Part shown: positions 34,632 to 44,383 of the stretch, one piece after another
Layout: the number at the start of each line of letters is the position of its first letter
Numbering within the stretch: the first letter of the stretch is position 1
Origin: Candidatus Methanoplasma cognatum
Lineage (GTDB): Archaea; Thermoplasmatota; Thermoplasmata; Methanomassiliicoccales; Methanomethylophilaceae
Length of the DNA: 64,000 nt
Assembly (NCBI GenBank): GCA_009777615.1
Contig: WRLM01000003.1
Coordinates: 62,001 to 126,000, forward strand
Direction: 5' to 3'
Position numbers and translations under genes: made by a program
The notes under the pieces: generated by a model
What the model saw: the letters and a program-made list of their open reading frames with translations, nothing else
Database searches by the model: none
What the model was told of the DNA's origin: nothing

Positions 34632-36029
34632 TTAGAGGCCGTAGTTCTTCTTGGTGTAGTTCGGAACGTCGGCGTACTTCTTGTCGCAGTACTCGAAGAA
34701 CTTGGCTTCCTCAGCGGGGAGTGCCTCGAAGTCTTTTATGATGACGTCGATGGTCTCTTTCTGCTTTACGGTGAGCGGAAGTTCTTTGCTCTCGAATCCG
34801 GCCTTTACGAGCTTGGCTGCGGTAAGTCCTGCTGCCTTTGCGCGGAGGTAGATGTTGTTACCCTCTTTCGCAATTGCCTCTCCGACCTTGTAGGCGTTGT
34901 CGAAGGCGAGCATGTAGCCCTCGGGGCCTCTTGTGCGGTCGGTGATCATGTACAGGTCCCTCAGGGTCTTCTCGTTTCCGGTTGCGATAGCGCAGTTCAT
35001 CAGGGCCACTTCGTAGCCGAGTGATCCGAGCCAGCACTGGACTGACGATCCACCGAATTCGGGGTGGTACTCAACGGACTCGTTCGACCAAACGTCGCAG
35101 ATCTGAGCCATCAGGTTGCCCTGCAGGTCAGCGTGTGCGCACTGGCAGTTCTTTCCCTCTTGGGCTGCAGGCCTTCCGGTGATGGTCTTTATTATGGGTC
35201 CCTCGTATCCGCAGTCCTTGTCGGGTCCGGATGCGCCGCACTCCATTGCAACCATTGTCCTGGCCGCCGATATTGCCCTTGTTACGGTCGAGAAGGTCTT
35301 CTGGACATCCTGGTCGAGCATGCCGCCGGCCATGAACATCGATGTGTTCGCACCGGAACAGTTGGTGTCTCCGCCGCAAACCACTTTGTTCTTCTTCGCG
35401 GTGTTGACGAACTCAGACCATACGAACTCCATGTCGATGGAGCCGAGGTATCCTACACCATAAAGGAACGCTACTGCGTCTCCGGTCGTGACTGCGTGGT
35501 CAGCGAGCTCTTTTCCGCCCATCGTCTCGCATGAGATGAGGTCGGCTCCGTTCTCGCAAGCAACGTCGCAGCATCCGAAGAGTGCCTCAGGGTAGAGGTG
35601 TTTTCCCTTCGCGCCGGGGCGGAGTCCTTCCTCTGCCTCACGCTGGTCAGGCAGGGTCTGCCTTACTGCAGTGCAGATGCCGTACTCCTCGTTGAACTTC
35701 CTGGTGATCTCGCGCTGTCCCTCGACAACGGGGGCCGCGAATTTGGGGTTACCCATCTGGGAAATCCACTCTGTCTCGAGCTGCAGGTCCGGGAATCCGA
35801 GCGTGATGGCTCTGTTCAGTGCGTCTTTCGAGATGTAGTCAACGTACTCTTTCTTCAGTCTTGCCGGGTCTTTCTCAGATCCGGGCCTCGGTCCGTAGTT
35901 GAGCTCGGGTATTACCCTTCCGGCGCCCACTTTTATTCCGCATCCGTAGGATACGGGGGATTTCGCGGTTCCGAATACAACCTCATCAGCACTCGAGTAT
36001 GCCATTTTTGTGAATCTTGTTGCTGCCAT
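34632..36029 (-). CDS. mtaB: Methanol:corrinoid methyltransferase MtaB
   Basis: A 465-residue zinc enzyme that cleaves methanol and transfers the methyl group to the cobalt of MtaC, the entry step of methanol methanogenesis. The zinc ligands known from Methanosarcina barkeri MtaB (Glu164, Cys220, Cys269) have equivalents here at a constant +4 offset: Glu168 (SCETMGG), Cys224 (DTNCSGANTS) and Cys273 (KDCGYEGP). No in-frame UAG, as expected for MtaB. It starts 2 nt after the mtaC stop with GGAGGTG upstream. Downstream, 34488-34631 shows no gene. Confidence 0.97.
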   Translation of the reverse strand: MAATRFTKMAYSSADEVVFGTAKSPVSYGCGIKVGAGRVIPELNYGPRPGSEKDPARLKKEYVDYISKDALNRAITLGFPDLQLETEWISQMGNPKFAAPVVEGQREITRKFNEEYGICTAVRQTLPDQREAEEGLRPGAKGKHLYPEALFGCCDVACENGADLISCETMGGKELADHAVTTGDAVAFLYGVGYLGSIDMEFVWSEFVNTAKKNKVVCGGDTNCSGANTSMFMAGGMLDQDVQKTFSTVTRAISAARTMVAMECGASGPDKDCGYEGPIIKTITGRPAAQEGKNCQCAHADLQGNLMAQICDVWSNESVEYHPEFGGSSVQCWLGSLGYEVALMNCAIATGNEKTLRDLYMITDRTRGPEGYMLAFDNAYKVGEAIAKEGNNIYLRAKAAGLTAAKLVKAGFESKELPLTVKQKETIDVIIKDFEALPAEEAKFFEYCDKKYADVPNYTKKNYGL

Positions 36030-36031
36030 GT

Positions 36032-36814
36032 TTACACACCTCCAACGATGTCGTCCCAGTTTGCCCTGATCTTTCTCCAGTCGTAGCCGGCTTTGACTTT
36101 GTCGGCTATCGGCGGGGTCTGCGGGGCTTTCTCAGAGTATATTCCGAGGTCGAATGACTCGGAGAAGTCTCTGTTCACTGCGCCGCCTGCGGACATGAAG
36201 GGCAGGTTTATTCCCTTCGCGACGAGCTGCTCAGCAGCCCTGGGGAACGCTGTCATCGTCGTCGTCATGAGTGCCGTTCCAGTAACCATCATGGGTTTGG
36301 ATTTGATTACCTCTGCGACCACGTCTTTCACATCGACGTCCTTGCCCATGTCGATAACTGAGTATCCGGACGAGGTCAGCATGACCTTGGCGATGTTCTT
36401 TCCGATGTCGTGGGGGTCTCCCTCTGCAACATGCATGACAACCAGTCCTTTCGTCTCCCTTCCGCCTTTGATCTGTTTCTCGGCGATTGCGATTCCGATC
36501 TCCATGGTCTTTGCGGCCATCATGATCTCGGGGAGATAGTAGATGTGGTCTGCATACAGCTTTGCAACAACTTCCATTCCGATTACAAGTCCGTCGTTTA
36601 TGATGACGAGCGGGTCTTTTGTTTTCAGCGCCTCAGTGGTGGCAGGGCCTACGTCCTTGAATTTCATCCAAACAACGGTCTCTGCGACCTTTTTAAGCAC
36701 CGGATCCTTAGGCAGCATCTTGGCGGCGATAGCTTCCGGGGAAGCCTCGTTCTGTGCTTTGATGTCATACCTTGTGAGGATCTTTGCATAGTCTACTCCT
36801 TTGTGACTAACCAT
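36032..36814 (-). CDS. mtaC: Methanol corrinoid protein MtaC
   Basis: A 260-residue cobalamin-binding methyl carrier. A helical cap domain (~30-115) precedes the Rossmann B12-binding domain (~120-245), whose D-x-H-x-x-G motif lies in EGDPHDIGKN, with His135 as the lower cobalt ligand. The later SxGxxx and GG motifs appear as TALMTTTMTAFPRA and SAGGAVNRDF. It accepts methyl from MtaB-bound methanol and passes it to MtaA/coenzyme M; no mtaA is in the window. A full AAGGAGG site precedes the ATG, after a ~70-nt leader. It forms an operon with mtaB. Confidence 0.97.
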   Translation of the reverse strand: MVSHKGVDYAKILTRYDIKAQNEASPEAIAAKMLPKDPVLKKVAETVVWMKFKDVGPATTEALKTKDPLVIINDGLVIGMEVVAKLYADHIYYLPEIMMAAKTMEIGIAIAEKQIKGGRETKGLVVMHVAEGDPHDIGKNIAKVMLTSSGYSVIDMGKDVDVKDVVAEVIKSKPMMVTGTALMTTTMTAFPRAAEQLVAKGINLPFMSAGGAVNRDFSESFDLGIYSEKAPQTPPIADKVKAGYDWRKIRANWDDIVGGV

Positions 36815-36883
36815 AAGTTTTTCCTCCTTGTTTATGTGTTAGCCGATTTCTCGACCGACACTAATGGTAGAATAAGTCGAACA

Positions 36884-36920
36884 CTATATAACCTGTATCA
36901 AGGATGGATGTTATATCCAT
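36884..36920 (-). promoter_or_regulatory. mtaCB promoter with upstream palindrome
   Basis: TATA box GGTTATATAG (36884-36893, minus strand) predicts a transcription start near 36862. Directly upstream (36904-36920) is ATGGAT-GTTAT-ATCCAT, a perfect 6-bp inverted repeat placed just behind the BRE position; an overlapping CCATT/AATGG repeat extends to 36933. This is a plausible operator for methanol-dependent control. The rest of 36934-37078 is AT-rich and shows no gene. Confidence 0.5.
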
Positions 36921-37078
36921 TCGATATAAATGGTAACACAATGCTTATATACTGTGAACGAAAAAAGTAGATATGTCGCGCCTTGAGAAAGCTATATTGT
37001 TCTACGTATTTCGTAAAAAATGTTTGTTTTTTTGAGGTAAAGTTGACATCCGGCCAAGGTCGAAACGTAATTATGATC

Positions 37079-38437
37079 TCATCTTCTGAAGTAATCGTAA
37101 CAGCTGTCAACAAATCTCCCCGGGATTTTCGGGTTGGATGCGAAATGGATGTGCGTATACCCTGCGATGGTGTTTCCTGCCATCATACCGTCTTTGCCAT
37201 CCTCGATCCCGTTCCCCCTTGTAAGGTCGAATGCATATTCCCTGTGCCCGGCAGGAGAGATGGCCGAATAGTGGAACTCATGCCCTCTGACGGTCCACCC
37301 CTTTTCACATAGGATAGTGTCGGCATTGGAGGTCATTTCCACATACCCCAGCGATCTTCTTCTGTCGTTCATTTTGGATTCCGCTTCCAGAACCCCGCAC
37401 ATCTCATGTCTTCCGCCTTCCGTTAGGCATATGTGCTTGGAGAGGTACATCAGACCGCCGCACTCAGCGTATATCGGCATGCCGTCCTCTGATGCCTTTT
37501 TCACGGCTGACCTCACCTTCTCGTTCTTTTCTAACTTTTCGGAGAATATCTCCGGGTAGCCTCCGCCGAAGTACAGGCCGCTGACGTCGGGGAGGTCGCC
37601 GTCGATAGGAGAGAAGGGCACTATCTCGGCGCCGGCCTCGATCATAGCTTCTATATTATGAATATAATAGAAGTTAAAGGCGCGGTCCTTCGCCACACCT
37701 ATGCGCACCTTGCTCTTTTTCTTGGAGGGAGGATCATATTTTCTTGTGAAGGAGGGGGCGGTTCCCGCTATCTCCACAAGTCTGTCGATGTCCACGCAGC
37801 TTTCCACATGCTCCATTATTTTTTCATACTTACCGCGGTCATAGTTCTCCGCGGCGGGGATAAGACCGAGATGTCTGCTTTCCAATGCCATGCATTCATC
37901 CCTGAGCACTCCTCCGAGGCAGGGTATGTCTTTGAGCGAACGTTCCAATATCCTCAGGTGTTTCTCGCTTCCCACTCTGTTGAAGATCACTCCCGCTAAA
38001 TTTACGTCCGCATCATATTCTTTGAAGCCGAGAGCTATCGCGCCGGCGCTTCTGGCCATTGACTTTGCGTCGATCACGAGGATGACGGGGGCCTTGACTA
38101 TCTTTGACAGATGGGCGGTCGAGCCTTCTTCGCTTGTGCCGTCTATGCCGTCGTACAGCCCCATGACCCCCTCTATTACAGATATTCCCGACCCTTCCGA
38201 ACCTTTTACGAAAAGTCTTTCGGCCTCGTCTTTGAACATCCAGGTGTCCAGGTTCCTGCATTCTTTACCGAGGACCATTGTGTGGTGCATGGGGTCAAGA
38301 TAATCCGGGCCGGTCTTGAAGGATTGAGGGTTCAGCCCTCTTTTCTTCAGAGCCATCAGCAACCCCATGGTTATAGTTGATTTCCCAGCTCCGCTGTGGG
38401 TGCCTGCAATTACGATCCTGGGGACACCGCACGACAT
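37079..38437 (-). CDS. Cobyrinate / Ni-sirohydrochlorin a,c-diamide synthase (CbiA/CfbB family)
   Basis: About 452 residues. The N-terminal ATP-dependent domain has the P-loop-like AGTHSGAGKSTITMGLL and FKTGPDYLDPMHH. The C-terminal glutamine amidotransferase domain has GLYFGGGYPEIF, the catalytic cysteine in YAECGGLMYLS and a His near the end (YTHIHFASNP). The enzyme amidates the a and c side chains of cobyrinate (B12) or Ni-sirohydrochlorin (F430). Both cofactors are needed by a methylotrophic methanogen and the two enzymes are homologous; which one this is cannot be decided here. The ATG at 38437 starts directly before the domain; it is divergent from the CobW gene. Confidence 0.88.
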   Translation of the reverse strand: MSCGVPRIVIAGTHSGAGKSTITMGLLMALKKRGLNPQSFKTGPDYLDPMHHTMVLGKECRNLDTWMFKDEAERLFVKGSEGSGISVIEGVMGLYDGIDGTSEEGSTAHLSKIVKAPVILVIDAKSMARSAGAIALGFKEYDADVNLAGVIFNRVGSEKHLRILERSLKDIPCLGGVLRDECMALESRHLGLIPAAENYDRGKYEKIMEHVESCVDIDRLVEIAGTAPSFTRKYDPPSKKKSKVRIGVAKDRAFNFYYIHNIEAMIEAGAEIVPFSPIDGDLPDVSGLYFGGGYPEIFSEKLEKNEKVRSAVKKASEDGMPIYAECGGLMYLSKHICLTEGGRHEMCGVLEAESKMNDRRRSLGYVEMTSNADTILCEKGWTVRGHEFHYSAISPAGHREYAFDLTRGNGIEDGKDGMMAGNTIAGYTHIHFASNPKIPGRFVDSCYDYFRR

Positions 38438-38550
38438 AATGGATATATGCTCCAACTTGTATTTTAAAGATACACCGCGCGCCGAAATAGGGACGTTCAA
38501 AAATTCCATTGAAAGACTAATATATCATCCTGACTGTTCCCCTTAATCAT

Positions 38551-39138
38551 ATGTATGTTTACATTTTAGGCGGATTCCTCGGAAGCGGGAAAACGACGCT
38601 TTTGATGAAGCTAGCTTCAATGTACAGTAAGAAGGGCGCTAAAGTAGCCATATTAGTGAACGAATCCGGCGAGATCGGAGTCGACGGCGCCACTCTGAAA
38701 GCGGAGGGCTACGACGCCATAGAGCTGCCGGACGGATGCATATGCTGTTCCCTTTCCGGCACGCTGCAGACCGCCCTAAAAAACATAAAAAGAGATATTG
38801 ACCCTGACATAATAATAATAGAGCCCACGGGGCTAGCGCTGCCTCATAAAGTAAAGGATCTGGTCCATATTTCAATGATCAATCCCGACGAAATGTACAT
38901 CATCGGAATAGCAGACATACAAAGGTTCGACGATCTGATCAAGAAAAAGGAGGAATTCTTCAAAAGACAGATGTTCGCCGCGGACTTCATCCTGATCAAC
39001 AAAAGCGACCTCGCCACGCCTGAGAAGATGGAATCGGCCATCAAATGGCTGAAGGGTGAGTATCCGGATAAGCCGATGATCCCTGTGTCCACCAAAACGG
39101 GGGAGAATATGGACAAGGTCTACGAGATGATGCAATGA
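38551..39138 (+). CDS. CobW/G3E-family metallochaperone GTPase
   Basis: A 195-residue G3E-family P-loop GTPase. Walker A is GGFLGSGKT (7-15), the CxCC metal motif typical of CobW proteins is CICC (63-66), Walker B-like IIIIEPTGLALP follows, and NKSD gives guanine specificity. It is shorter than standard CobW (which has an extra C-terminal domain), being just the GTPase domain. G3E proteins insert Ni, Co or Zn into target enzymes using GTP. It overlaps the next gene by 4 nt and begins a cassette with a His-rich protein and a corrinoid activase, suggesting delivery of a metal to that system. Confidence 0.88.
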   Translation: MYVYILGGFLGSGKTTLLMKLASMYSKKGAKVAILVNESGEIGVDGATLKAEGYDAIELPDGCICCSLSGTLQTALKNIKRDIDPDIIIIEPTGLALPHKVKDLVHISMINPDEMYIIGIADIQRFDDLIKKKEEFFKRQMFAADFILINKSDLATPEKMESAIKWLKGEYPDKPMIPVSTKTGENMDKVYEMMQ

Positions 39139-39776
39139 GCGAACATAAACACGACAAGGACTGCCACTGCCGCGAGTGTGAGGACGAGAAAGCGGATACG
39201 GAAAGGACGTCGATCGAGGAAGCGGGCGGCGTCGCCGTCGGCCTGAAAGGACACATACACGGTTTCAACGCGGATGCCGCTGCCCGCATGTCCAACGCGC
39301 TGCTTGCCACAGGTAAATGGGTGGAGAAAGAGTCCGGCTCCCTGCTTGGGCACATAAAGGCCGCCGTCTACAACTCAGAAGGAAGGGGGATAACTTTCAA
39401 CCTGACGGATGTGGGCAACGGGGTCGAACAGCACGGCACGCTGCCCCCCCAGAAAGAGGTCAACTTCAACTTCATGTCCGCCGTACTTGACGTGGACCCC
39501 CATGAATTGGAACACGCAATGATGGATGCCCTTGAGGATACCGGTCTGGACTACCACCTGGAGGGGCAAAGCTGCGATCATGAGCACCATCATCACGAAC
39601 ACGGCCACGATCACGGTCATCACCATGATCATGGTCATGAACATCACGATCATCATCACCATGATGAGAAGGATGAGGTCTGCCACTGCGAAGCATGTGA
39701 GGACCGCAGAAAGGAAGAGGCCGAAAGGGCCGAAAAAGGCTCTTTCTGGGATAAAATAAGGAGGAGGAAAAAATGA
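39135..39776 (+). CDS. His/Cys-rich putative metal-storage or chaperone protein
   Basis: 213 residues. A CHCREC motif near the N-terminus (10-15) is mirrored by CHCEAC near the C-terminus (183-188). Between them is a folded-looking region (~30-145, GGVAVGLKGHIHGFNADAAARM, split by turns, and VDPHELEHAMMDALEDTG). Then comes an extreme His tract (149-176, 19 His in 28 residues, alternating with D, E and G) and a basic tail. Such tracts bind nickel, cobalt or zinc, as in HypB and UreE. I know no named family for the core. It overlaps both neighbours by 4 nt, so all three proteins are probably made together. Confidence 0.7.
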   Translation: MSEHKHDKDCHCRECEDEKADTERTSIEEAGGVAVGLKGHIHGFNADAAARMSNALLATGKWVEKESGSLLGHIKAAVYNSEGRGITFNLTDVGNGVEQHGTLPPQKEVNFNFMSAVLDVDPHELEHAMMDALEDTGLDYHLEGQSCDHEHHHHEHGHDHGHHHDHGHEHHDHHHHDEKDEVCHCEACEDRRKEEAERAEKGSFWDKIRRRKK

Positions 39777-41389
39777 GATACGGTATATCGCTGGACATGG
39801 GTACCAGCGGAACCAGGGCGCACAGCGTGGACCTTTCCGACGGGAAGATACTATCCACGTCTGTAACGGAATGCCACCCGCTGCCGGGTGCCAACATAAT
39901 GGACCACCTGACATTCTGCATCAACATAGGAACGGATATCGCACACAGGATCGTCATGGACACTGTCAACAAAGTGATAAAGACCCTCGACGTCGACCTG
40001 AAGAAGGTCGAAAGAGTCTCAATCTGCGGGAACCCCATACAGCTTTCGCTGTTCCAGGGCATAGGCGTGGAGGACCTTGCTTTTGCGGGAGAGAACGCCC
40101 ACAAAGCGAGAGGCATCAAGGTCCTCGACAGGAACGCCGGAGTGTTCTCCGCCGTGGATGTGGGCCTTGACGTGCCCGACGGCTGCGAGCTGTGCGTTCC
40201 GCCCTCTATCAGACACGAGATCGGCGCGGACGCGCTTGCCATGATGTACAAGAGCGGATTCCTGGAGCAGAAGGATAACTGTCTCGTCACAGACTACGGA
40301 ACGAATGCGGAGATGGCACTGAAGGTCGGCGATGACATATACACAGGTTCCGCCGCCGCCGGACCTGCGATGGAAGGACAGTCCATAAAATACGGTATGC
40401 TTGCCGGCCCTGGGGCCATCAGCGATCTGGAATATGACACCCAGTGGAGATGCCTCGTGCTTGATGAGAACATAATGCCGCAGCCGGGGGACATGGTCGA
40501 CTTCAACCTGAACATGGTCACCTCCGAGGGGCCGATGCACGGCAAGGCGAAAGGTATCACCGGGACCGGCGTCGTCGCCGCTGTCGCAGCGGCTTTGGGA
40601 GGCGGCCTCTGGAAAAGAGGAAAGCTCACCACCGACGGCGAGAAAATGGTCTTCCAGGACGGAGTATACATCGACTCGCACGACATCTCTGAGGCTTGCA
40701 AGGCCATCGGCGCCATGAGGGCGGGACACTTCACGCTCCTTGAGAAAGCCGGGATAAAGTTCGACGAGATGCAGACCATGTATATGGCGGGCGCATCGGG
40801 AACGTATGTGGATGCCGTCAAGGCCAGGGAGGTGGGCCTCCTGCCCCCGTCCTGCAACAAGATATACCAGTACGGCAACACGTCCCTCGCGATGGCTACG
40901 GACATCCTCAGGAACCCGGAGCTCCTTGACGAGCTTCAGGGGATAGCGGACGGCATCAGGGCGAACCACGTGATGTTCGCGTCCGACCCGATATTCGAGC
41001 AGATCTATGTTATGGAACTCGCATACTGGGATGAGGGGATGAGCATGGATATGTACAACACATACAACGAGATGATGGACATACAGCCTCTGCCTAAGGT
41101 CAAAGGTGTGCCTGAGGTCTTCCGCATGGTGGCCCGTGACATACCGGATCTGGGTGCCGGCGGCCTCCGCATAATCCATGACATAGGCACCGAGCTGAAG
41201 GCGCACATGCCGGGATGTACCGGATGCAAGAAGTGTGAGAAAGAGTGTCCGGAGAGGGCTCTTACCGTCACCGATGACAAGCAGATCGTTGTTAAAACAA
41301 AGAACTGCCTGGGAACTGCGTGTTACAGATGCCAGTTCTCATGTCCGGAAAAAGTGTATAAGTACGACCTTCTGAAACTCGACAGCTGA
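39773..41389 (+). CDS. RamA-type corrinoid protein reductive activase
   Basis: 538 residues, the length of Methanosarcina RamA. An actin-like ATPase (ASKHA/DUF4445) body shows SLDMGTSGTRAHSVDLSDG at the N-terminus and DYGTNAEMALKVGDD and GAGGLRII-type segments later. The C-terminal ~57 residues bind two Fe-S clusters (CTGCKKCEKECPERAL and CLGTACYRCQFSCPEKV). RamA uses ATP to reduce inactive Co(II) corrinoid proteins to Co(I). With mtaCB nearby on the opposite strand it probably reactivates MtaC, and perhaps methylamine corrinoid proteins encoded elsewhere. It is last in the cassette and followed by a strong hairpin. Confidence 0.9.
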   Translation: MRYGISLDMGTSGTRAHSVDLSDGKILSTSVTECHPLPGANIMDHLTFCINIGTDIAHRIVMDTVNKVIKTLDVDLKKVERVSICGNPIQLSLFQGIGVEDLAFAGENAHKARGIKVLDRNAGVFSAVDVGLDVPDGCELCVPPSIRHEIGADALAMMYKSGFLEQKDNCLVTDYGTNAEMALKVGDDIYTGSAAAGPAMEGQSIKYGMLAGPGAISDLEYDTQWRCLVLDENIMPQPGDMVDFNLNMVTSEGPMHGKAKGITGTGVVAAVAAALGGGLWKRGKLTTDGEKMVFQDGVYIDSHDISEACKAIGAMRAGHFTLLEKAGIKFDEMQTMYMAGASGTYVDAVKAREVGLLPPSCNKIYQYGNTSLAMATDILRNPELLDELQGIADGIRANHVMFASDPIFEQIYVMELAYWDEGMSMDMYNTYNEMMDIQPLPKVKGVPEVFRMVARDIPDLGAGGLRIIHDIGTELKAHMPGCTGCKKCEKECPERALTVTDDKQIVVKTKNCLGTACYRCQFSCPEKVYKYDLLKLDS

Positions 41390-41398
41390 AACTATCAT

Positions 41399-41420
41399 AG
41401 AGGGGGCGACCCCTCTTTTT
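41399..41420 (+). terminator. Terminator after the RamA-type gene
   Basis: AGAGGGG-GCGA-CCCCTCT followed by TTTTT: a 7-bp perfect stem with a T tract. It ends exactly at the stop codon of the convergent ABC ATPase gene, so it can serve both transcripts. Confidence 0.7.
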
Positions 41421-42235
41421 TAATCGTTCATAACGTTCTCTTTTTCCAGCTCGGTCAGTATCTTTTTCCGGAGGGCGGTGAATTCCAGACATGCGCGGTC
41501 CCTGGGGCGCGGCCAGGGGATGTCTATGATCTCCTTTATGCTCGCGGGACGTTTCGTAAGCACCACTATCCTGTCGGAGAGGAACACCGCCTCATCGACA
41601 GAATGAGTGACAAAAATTATCGTTTGGTCTGTCTTTTCAAGGATATTAAGGAGCTGCACCTGCATAATGTTCCTGGTCTGGGCATCCAAAGCGCCGAACG
41701 GTTCGTCCATGAGGATCACATCAGGATGTCCCACCAGCGCTCTGGCGATGCCCACGCGCTGTTTCATACCTCCGGAAAGTTCGTGGACACGGGCGTCGAT
41801 GAACTTCTCCAGGCCTGCGAGTTTGATGTACTTCTCCGCCCTCTCTCTTCGCTCTTCTTTAGGAACACCGGCTACTTCAAGACCGAACTCCACATTCTTC
41901 CTCACCGACCTCCAGGGGAACAGCGCAAAGTCCTGGAACACCATCCCTCTGTCCGCTCCGGGGGCGGTACACGGCCTTCCGCTTATCCGTATCTCTCCCG
42001 ATGTGGGCTGTATGAGGCCGGCTATAAGCCTGAGGATCGTGGTCTTGCCGCATCCCGACGGTCCGACAAGGGTTATCAGCTCTCCTTTTTTGATATCGAG
42101 AGAAAAGTCCTCCAGGGCGACTGTTTCCACTTCATCCCTTTTGAAAACCTTCCTCAGGCCGCTGATAACAATATGGGTATCCGGAGGTGCTGCGTATTCC
42201 TGCGGTGTTTGTTCCGTTCCTTGTTCGTCATTCAT
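41420..42235 (-). CDS. ABC transporter ATP-binding protein, nitrate/sulfonate/taurine type
   Basis: 271 residues. Walker A GPSGCGKTT, Q-loop VFQDFALFPW, signature LSGGMKQR, Walker B VILMDEPFGALD and switch THSVDEA are all intact. The FALFPWRSV motif and the DIPWPRPRDR tail are typical of the SsuB/TauB/NrtD group. The frame is open far upstream (over the permease gene), but MNDEQ at 42235 is the first sensible start and overlaps the permease stop by 4 nt. It powers import by the permease and binding protein encoded just upstream in the same operon. Confidence 0.93.
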   Translation of the reverse strand: MNDEQGTEQTPQEYAAPPDTHIVISGLRKVFKRDEVETVALEDFSLDIKKGELITLVGPSGCGKTTILRLIAGLIQPTSGEIRISGRPCTAPGADRGMVFQDFALFPWRSVRKNVEFGLEVAGVPKEERRERAEKYIKLAGLEKFIDARVHELSGGMKQRVGIARALVGHPDVILMDEPFGALDAQTRNIMQVQLLNILEKTDQTIIFVTHSVDEAVFLSDRIVVLTKRPASIKEIIDIPWPRPRDRACLEFTALRKKILTELEKENVMND

Positions 42236-43050
42236 ACTTCTATCCCCATCCTCTTTGACAGCAACCTGTGGATATAATCCGCTACGCCTATCGTCAGCAG
42301 CCCCAATACCGCGATTATCACCAGCGCGGCGTAGGCGCCCGGCCAGTATCCCGCTGCCGCTTGCTCGGCAAGATAGAATCCTATGCCTCCGAGAGGCGTA
42401 GCGTATAACTCCGCCGCGACGATACACATCCACCCGATCCCCAGCCCGACCTTGACGCCGTTCATGACATACGGGACGGCGGAAGGCATCATCACTTTGT
42501 AGAATACTTGTATCTGCGATGCGCCCAGCGTCTTGGATGCATCTATCCAGTTGGGATCTATTTTTCTCACCCCGAAGATGACGTTTGTCAAAAGCGGGAA
42601 GAAGATACCGACAAACACCACTAAAACGGGCCCGATCGAATAACCTAACGAAAGCATGAATATCGGAGCCCATGCTATGGGGGCTATCGGCCTGAGTATC
42701 TCGATGACGGGGCTTGCAAAATCCCTCAGGACCTTGGAGTAGCCGAGGATCAGCCCCAATGGCACCGCCACAGCAAACGCCAGAAGGAATCCCTTGATGA
42801 AAGTGGACAAACTGGACGATATGTATCCTCCTAAACTTATTTTGGTCATCCTGTCACCGTTCAGATACAGATCGACCAAAGCATTCCAAGTTTCCAAAGG
42901 GGTTGGGATGGCGGTGCTTTTTGTGATTACTGAGATCGCCCACCATGTAAAAATGAAAATGGACAACGAGATAACAGCTATCAGTACGGTCCTTGCGAAC
43001 CTATGATACTTGTTATTCTCGTCGTATTTTATTCCTAAGATCTGACTCAT
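42232..43050 (-). CDS. ABC transporter permease, nitrate/sulfonate/taurine type
   Basis: 272 residues with about six membrane helices. The EAA coupling loop appears as IDASKTLGASQIQVFYKVMMPSAVPYV (residues ~170-196), and FGVRKIDPNW precedes it. This fits the SsuC/TauC permease family. It lies 4 nt after the binding-protein gene and overlaps the ATPase gene by 4 nt. The substrate is not determined by the sequence; sulfonates such as taurine or coenzyme M are candidates in a methanogen. Confidence 0.92.
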   Translation of the reverse strand: MSQILGIKYDENNKYHRFARTVLIAVISLSIFIFTWWAISVITKSTAIPTPLETWNALVDLYLNGDRMTKISLGGYISSSLSTFIKGFLLAFAVAVPLGLILGYSKVLRDFASPVIEILRPIAPIAWAPIFMLSLGYSIGPVLVVFVGIFFPLLTNVIFGVRKIDPNWIDASKTLGASQIQVFYKVMMPSAVPYVMNGVKVGLGIGWMCIVAAELYATPLGGIGFYLAEQAAAGYWPGAYAALVIIAVLGLLTIGVADYIHRLLSKRMGIEV

Positions 43051-43054
43051 CGCA

Positions 43055-44209
43055 TTAAGCCTTCACGAGTTCTCCGTTTATAACAGTTATCGTAATGGGC
43101 GGCGCTCCCAGCAGACCGAACGATGCCTCGCCGTTCTGTATGGCTGTCGCGACCCCCGGCCCGTTCGTTGCGGGAGAGAACGAGACATTGAGCCCGTAGT
43201 CTTCAAAGAACCCGAGTTCCTTTGCCACATGGACTGCTATCTGGTGTATGTCTCCGGCAATGACGGCCACTTTCAGGCTCGCGGATCCCTCAAAGGTCTC
43301 TCCGCTTGCCAATAACTGAAGCGCTTTTCCGAGGAAGCTTTCATCTATGAACTTGTCTGCGAACTCATCGCCGTTTTCAAACCCAAGGTTCTTGAGTGTT
43401 TTGTTTGTGGCGCCCAGTTCGACCAAGTTCTCTGCTAAGGATGGAATCTCGTTTTTCAGATATGCGAGGGGCGTGCCGCTGTTCTCGCCATAGGTGTACG
43501 TAACGGTCTCCATAGCTTCTTTTATCTCATCCTCTGTGAAATTCGGACCAGCTACATCCTTCGCAATGCTGACCAGCCGAGCATAGTCCTCGCTCGTTTT
43601 GTTGTTGAGCGCACCGTTTACCCAATTGACGGCCTTGACATATGCGGCCAAGAACCTGACGGTCTCATTCTCATGAGTAGAGGTGTATCCGTGGAACCCG
43701 GCAATGACACAGCAAGCGTGTCCTGGGAACAGGTCGTTGGTAAGCGCCAGTTCTTTAAACCTTGTTGTTCCGTCGTCTACTATCTTCTGATACTGGGGCT
43801 GCCACAGCGAACCTCCGTCGATGACATCGTTTCCGAGGGCCAGCCCTGCGTTGGATATGTTTGAGATGAAATACACAGTATTAGGGGCAGAATTATTTCC
43901 CCCCACGGTATACGCCGCGAAGCTCATGCCCATGCCTTCTACGATCGTGAGAAGCTGTACATGCTGTATCGTTGATATTCCGGGCGTTCCGAACACCTTC
44001 CCTTCCCAGCCCGACGGTATCGGTTGGCTGCTGGCGTCGAACATATCGCCTACATTATACTTTTTATCAATATAAATGCCGGAACCTTCTGTGTTGACTC
44101 CGGCAATGATATTGATCTCTTTGTCTTTGTCTTGGAGGAAGAAGTACACTCCGACCCCTGCTACAACAAGGACTGCTATGATTATTACTGCTATGATTTT
44201 GGTATTCAA
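43055..44209 (-). CDS. ABC transporter substrate-binding protein, apparently circularly permuted
   Basis: About 384 residues with an N-terminal membrane anchor (~4-24). The order is unusual. In SsuA/TauA-type proteins the chain starts with a strand-helix unit like LKVAVIAGDIHQIAVHVAKE, runs to GAPPITIT, and continues with IIAGVNTEGSGIYI. Here the second part (from INIIAGVNTEGSG, ~32) comes first, with GTPGISTIQHVQL and GHACCVIAGFHGY in their normal later order. The usual N-terminal 73 residues sit at the C-terminus (~312-384), ending GELVKA, which joins naturally to INIIAG. The start is a TTG at 44209 (or TTG at 44227). It is the first gene of the transporter operon. Confidence 0.82.
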   Translation of the reverse strand: MNTKIIAVIIIAVLVVAGVGVYFFLQDKDKEINIIAGVNTEGSGIYIDKKYNVGDMFDASSQPIPSGWEGKVFGTPGISTIQHVQLLTIVEGMGMSFAAYTVGGNNSAPNTVYFISNISNAGLALGNDVIDGGSLWQPQYQKIVDDGTTRFKELALTNDLFPGHACCVIAGFHGYTSTHENETVRFLAAYVKAVNWVNGALNNKTSEDYARLVSIAKDVAGPNFTEDEIKEAMETVTYTYGENSGTPLAYLKNEIPSLAENLVELGATNKTLKNLGFENGDEFADKFIDESFLGKALQLLASGETFEGSASLKVAVIAGDIHQIAVHVAKELGFFEDYGLNVSFSPATNGPGVATAIQNGEASFGLLGAPPITITVINGELVKA

Positions 44210-44383
44210 ACAACCACGTCCAGGCAAAAAATGTCTACATGATATTTAACCATATTAGGATATTTTATCCTTATTGTGATAAAAATTTCTATGTGCTGTC
44301 ATTGAATGGGCCCCGTCGCGACAAGGCCCTTGGTTCGGCGGCCCCGCGCAAAGAATATGAACCTAAGAACAATAGAAGGGCGC

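Follow-up and report, generated by a model that had tools for sequence, protein, structure and literature searches.

Two questions are raised by a gene in the 64,000-nucleotide stretch of Candidatus Methanoplasma cognatum DNA analysed here (the window): whether its substrate-binding protein (SBP), of the SsuA/TauA kind, really carries the first beta-alpha unit at its C-terminus, and, if so, how such an order came about. The gene opens a tight operon and is followed by its permease and ATPase genes (Table 1), and the window's own genome holds a single copy of it. An in-frame TTG at 44227 is also possible as its start codon. The NTEGSG, PGxSTIQH, WQP and HACC motifs of the protein all lie within residues 31-310.

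Table 1. The importer operon and the parts of its binding protein, in window positions.
Feature	Position	Strand	Basis or remark
Circularly permuted SsuA/TauA-like SBP, register R74, 384 aa, TTG start	43055..44209	-	ORF, profile, BLASTP
N-terminal membrane anchor (hydrophobic helix NTKIIAVIIIAVLVVAGVGVYFFL, without lipobox cysteine) and short linker	44120..44209	-	read from sequence
SBP residues 31-310, the canonical part after the first beta-alpha unit	43280..44119	-	segment order
SBP residues 311-384, the displaced canonical N-terminal beta-alpha unit (LKVAVIAGDIHQIA ... GAPPITITVINGELVKA)	43058..43279	-	profile, segment order
ABC permease (TauC/SsuC/SaoP-like)	42232..43050	-	4 bases downstream of the SBP stop codon
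ABC ATPase (SaoA/TauB-like)	41420..42235	-	ATG at 42235 overlaps the permease stop codon

Judged by the canonical order, with the first beta-alpha unit at the N-terminus, the window SBP fails. Positions 6-62 of the Pfam profile NMT1 (PF09084) matched the C-terminal residues 325-381 of the native protein, whereas the rotated protein gave one stretch (14-149 to 6-132) and 40.1 bits against 34.3 for the native form, both being above the Pfam gathering cut-off of 20.5 bits. Rotation likewise raised the SsuA_fam (TIGR01728) score from 30.5 to 35.4 bits and extended the matched stretch from 117-200 to 9-242 (rotated numbering). In BLASTP, the nearest canonical relative (L042, from the same family) aligned in two segments of inverted order, query 299-378 to subject 32-111 with 54% identity and query 25-298 to subject 120-402 with 33% identity, and the inversion was also found against the canonical relatives L053, L116, L117 and L167. 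A profile built from ten canonical bacterial proteins gave 65 bits and a single domain for the rotated SBP, and 55 bits and two domains, their order reversed, for the native form. The rotation of motifs proposed in the original prediction is thus borne out by all four comparisons, and the moved piece, put there at 73 residues, measures 73-74. A full-length alignment in the usual order, which would have contradicted the proposal, is impossible, and the rotated form aligns as one stretch. The window SBP is a natural circular permutant, since it matches its relatives over the full length only once rotated.

To read the order of any relative, the normalised 355-position alignment was written twice and turned into a profile, in which any rotation appears as one continuous match of one turn; the window SBP is a single match at positions 74-430 of this doubled circle. 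Our survey covered the window's order, relatives from elsewhere in its phylum and Pseudomonadota, other archaeal phyla being outside the sample. An SBP relative was present in 136 of 147 genomes of the order, and in 73 of the 74 with at least 90% completeness and at most 5% contamination. The orthologues were single full-turn matches in four registers. R74, the register of the window, occurred in 80 genomes, every one belonging to the window's family (f1); R153 in 34 genomes, none of them in f1, from other families of the order and in some cases from elsewhere in the phylum; and R192 in seven genomes, all in f1. R0, the canonical order, was carried by five genomes: G093 (f1), G013, G135 and G136 (other families of the order) and G185 (outside the order). 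The operon of SBP, permease and ATPase, with the SBP gene first, is common to all registers. In the Pseudomonadota control a distant relative was found in 14 of 200 genomes and all 14 read as canonical, so the doubled profile does not itself create permutations. No SBP relatives were found on viral contigs, and none of the window SBP on plasmids. The predicted permutation is therefore an order conserved in 80 genomes, and the search for relatives of either order in Methanomassiliicoccales returned both. In this regard the case had been understated: an entire family carries the rotation as its fixed order, and orthologous operons contain other rotations as well as the canonical order.

Several peculiarities were noted among these relatives. 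In G079 and G090 an R192 gene in the operon is accompanied by an R74 paralogue elsewhere, giving two registers per genome; these paralogues (L179, L180) are ORFs of 458-462 codons with the adjoining permease and ATPase genes on the opposite strand. In other classes of the phylum (L169, L172, L173, L167) lipobox-like sequences such as LTAGC or LSTGC replace the plain transmembrane anchor, and such relatives outside the order occur in both R153 and R0. Additionally, L079 (G116) has an extra stretch at the new C-terminus of the permuted protein (ORF residues about 440-517), which by eye resembles a carboxypeptidase-regulatory/Ig-like repeat.

The number and direction of the permutation events were read from trees built on order-normalised columns, so that register cannot influence them. 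The tree of 52 sequences required six register changes, and by this inference the receptor would have changed register at least six times. R192 lay in two separate, well-supported places inside R74, and a single R192 origin was rejected by the AU test (p 5e-47), as was a single origin of the canonical order (p 2e-67). The canonical gene of G093, L042, was placed deep inside permuted sequences as sister to an R192 clade (support 100/99), and the permease and ATPase of that genome share 78-94% identity with their counterparts in its R192 neighbours, which argues that the receptor was re-cut in place. Read from the tree, this receptor most simply returned to the canonical order. L042 is the sole canonical gene in its clade; the contig bearing it measures 7 kb, and its genome is about 61% complete. 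R74 itself is inferred to have arisen at or near the base of f1. In a tree with canonical outgroups, R153 was the earliest-branching register of the archaeal group. For the R0 genes of G185, G013 and G135/G136, return or retention of the ancestral order is unsettled because deep support is weak. L104 (G120), whose start is masked and whose end is that of R74, was left out of later trees. The change count of the canonical-outgroup tree is inflated by a row of L112 labelled R0 (278-727, across a tandem junction), and the count of six comes from the 52-sequence tree, which does not use that row.

The conservation of the receptor bears on whether it works. The DxHQ, GxPP, NxEGS, PGxxSIQH, WxP and HxCC motifs, presumed to form ligand loops, are largely kept in every register, and so are the anchor and the reading frame; close pairs of R74, R192 and R153 genes have dN/dS of about 0.04-0.14 (NG86, approximate), which shows purifying selection. 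The original prediction of an intact operon and a probably functional transporter is supported as far as kept motifs and a dN/dS of about 0.1 allow, function being inferred. That the permuted receptor works thus has indirect evidence in its motifs, dN/dS and retained operon, from which folding, transport and expression can only be inferred. None of the three cuts removes a motif, and their alignment with canonical relatives would place all three in loops between secondary-structure elements. The HACC motif stands at the same place in two canonical proteins of Pseudomonadota (L187, L188), and the Cys-Cys pair therefore probably predates the permutations. AlphaFold models of the full protein and of its mature part, made from a shallow alignment of six close sequences, had mean pLDDT of 49.7 and 46.5, too low for the models to be used; the two-lobed class II fold of the window SBP is inferred from homology to TauA/SsuA. 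In class II binding proteins of known structure the sites of the R153 and R192 cuts belong to lobe II or the hinge, whereas the R0 and R74 sites belong to lobe I; the lobe that bears the anchor thus probably differs between lineages, again an inference. The shift of the tether point by the new termini, as had been suggested, follows from the sequence, which does not speak to any functional effect.

A possible route to these orders is offered by in-frame tandem fusions, which were found in five genomes. Four of them, all of one genus, carry R74+R74 fusions (G077, G080, G082 and G087; loci L021, L025, L018 and L027), with two complete and intact units per ORF of 766-793 codons. The fifth, G144, carries R153+R153: its locus L112 (2231-4423) has two R153 units in 731 codons, of which copy 1 has lost ligand motifs (HPGS for HPCC, GDIN for GDLH). 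Its close relative G146, whose ATPase is 95% identical, has one unit, so that of this pair only G144 has the tandem form. Whatever the register, one whole receptor can be read across the junction of a tandem protein: residues 278-727 of the G144 protein, which span it, are read by the profile as a canonical receptor. Such tandem forms are the intermediates predicted by permutation by duplication (PMC3320104). In our trees the tandem clade was not the direct parent of any R192 or R0 gene. The copies of the displaced N-unit were more alike than the remainder in three of the four R74 tandems (98.6% against 82% in G077), as if homogenised.

The reading we favour, at a probability of roughly 0.88, is that of a permuted, membrane-anchored receptor that is one form of a repeatedly re-cut orthologue, with duplication as the likeliest route. 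The chain order and how widely it is conserved, the orthologous operons, the different registers, the tandem fusions and purifying selection are established by the data, while the unchanged fold, transport and the route are inferred. The gene would encode an anchored receptor serving an SsuA/TauA/NMT1-type ABC importer with one permease. Synthesis of this receptor ends with the first beta-alpha unit of lobe I. Its folded domain is presumably still an unchanged two-lobed trap whose ligand loops keep their usual places, and the anchor would join lobe I at a new point, following what is the third helix in the canonical chain. The register would have become fixed at the origin of the window's family or close to it. 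Across the order and related archaea this orthologous receptor would have been re-cut no fewer than six times, the R74 cut being one of them; position 192 would have been cut twice independently, and on the simplest reading the chain reverted to the canonical order at least once. Each change may have begun with an in-frame tandem fusion, after which copy 1 lost its front and copy 2 its back. The changed tether would be either a cause or a by-product of the permutation, which is likewise inferred. We also consider it quite probable that the receptor is freely re-cuttable, having undergone at least six permutations, used one site twice and returned to canonical at least once, through tandem fusions that are still visible.

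Other explanations of the same data differ in how many events they need and how those came about. The orders might have been made by fission and fusion, split pieces being rejoined in another order without tandem duplication. The lack of a partly truncated intermediate (longer than one turn and shorter than two) in the loci examined speaks for this route; it is nonetheless unlikely, as no split-gene stage was seen at any locus and in-frame tandems occur in five genomes and two registers, the G144 tandem standing against the single-unit G146. Few permutation events would be needed if the registers were ancient independent paralogues, swapped in the operon by horizontal transfer or recombination. 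The two registers held by G079 and G090 fit this, as does the presence of R192, with the same cut site, in two separate clades. Yet ancient paralogy would put all R192 genes in one clade, which the AU test rejected, and the tree sets the odd registers among their operon neighbours (L042 with R192, L043/L044 with R74 of a different clade), in agreement with permease and ATPase similarity; we regard this replacement as very unlikely and, on these sequence comparisons, already largely refuted.

An assembly or binning artefact, or a decayed gene, can be given almost no credence. Many of the genomes are draft assemblies, and the sole canonical gene of the L042 clade comes from the short contig and incomplete genome described above. 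Against this stand the 80 genomes sharing the R74 order, among them single-contig ones (G031, G035, G037, G071, G072, G075 and G077), the intact anchor and frame, and the low dN/dS. For the window gene itself an assembly rearrangement, which would have refuted the original prediction, is ruled out by the recurrence of its order.

The cargo of the importer was considered from its genomic surroundings. The window carries a methanol methyltransferase gene (mtaB, 34632-36029) and its corrinoid protein (36032-36814) near the operon. Also in the region 34632-41389 are genes for a cobyrinate synthase-like protein, a RACo-type corrinoid activator, a CobW-type GTPase and a His-rich protein that has no Pfam match; in many relatives the last three are again found next to the importer operon. 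The receptor has invariant His and Cys residues, which would be in keeping with a soft ligand, be it a metal, one of its complexes or a thiol compound. That the cargo is a metal or corrinoid-related is a tentative possibility, the substrate being unidentified. Nor can it be read from the family, because the scores are far below the curated SsuA and TauA cut-offs: against TIGR01728 (SsuA aliphatic sulfonate binding, cut-off 163.5 bits) the window SBP gave the 30.5 native and 35.4 rotated bits mentioned above and the canonical relative L053 gave 144.4, and against SaoX (NF040735, cut-off 300 bits) the window SBP gave 15.5 native and 18.4 rotated. Coenzyme M, considered from the sulfonate-type family, is not favoured as a substrate because three members of the order are reported to encode its synthesis (PMC4153887).

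The wider interest of the locus lies in the closeness of the proteins compared. Most inferences of circular permutation compare distant proteins, in which the sequence of events can no longer be traced. Here close orthologues within the same operon come in canonical, three permuted and tandem-fused forms. A tree can therefore show how many events there were, in which direction they ran and through which intermediates, and the debated choice between duplication and fission and fusion becomes directly testable. The receptors are also a natural experiment on whether the tether position matters for an ABC importer. In addition, order-dependent profiles score permuted SBPs as fragments or weak matches, although nearly all genomes of the order possess this importer. 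If the freely re-cuttable reading is true, the point of membrane attachment would be an evolving trait independent of the fold, moving between lobes.

Among known systems, the SsuA/TauA/NrtA-type SBPs (NMT1, PF09084; NMT1_2, PF13379) are homologous over most of the rotated window chain, and the operon adds a TauC/SsuC-like permease and a TauB-like ATPase; unlike them, the window SBP is rotated by 73-74 residues and has the conserved DxHQ, SIQH and HxCC motifs. The reference structures are PDB 6ssy (TauA), 2x26 (SsuA) and 2g29 (NrtA), and the profile of the window's family matched TauA 6ssy in canonical order (E 2.7e-11). The Sao system supplies the best NCBIfam names for the permease (SaoP, NF040733) and ATPase (SaoA, NF040729), with SaoX as a weak SBP match, but all three proteins fall below the curated cut-offs and SaoX fits canonical relatives better than the window SBP.

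Natural permutation of binding proteins is already known, and the present case is a further instance of it. Tp0684 (TpMglB-2) of Treponema pallidum (Type Ic/Cluster Bc), a tethered ABC binding protein, is circularly permuted in nature, its first N-lobe strands having moved to the C-terminus as in the window SBP, and its authors also raised a link to membrane tethering (PMC4990184). Structures of the glycine-betaine-binding ProX/OpuAC group are likewise related by circular permutation (CPSARST, PMC2395249). The description of such permutation as unusual in this fold is fair, although permuted binding proteins have published precedents. Tp0684 differs in belonging to a Type I sugar-binding class and in having one register common to its homologues, whereas the window's family has several registers in orthologous operons, tandem forms and a nested canonical gene. 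Our profile search of solved structures returned TauA, SsuA, NrtA and CmpA and no MglB, and the window SBP is not of Type I/Cluster B. The ProX/OpuAC relationship was found through structure comparison between groups of low identity and is not recurrent among close orthologues. DNA methyltransferases and saposin/swaposin show permutation by duplication, with permuted orders within one family, and duplicated or partly duplicated intermediates are documented for the methyltransferases (PMC3320104); these have other folds and functions, and the present case concerns one importer receptor in one archaeal order. No paper on permuted binding proteins in methanogens was found in the open-licence literature, most subscription papers being outside the search. 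As far as the open literature shows, what is new here is the recurrence of several registers among close orthologues within a conserved operon, together with tandem forms and a nested canonical gene.
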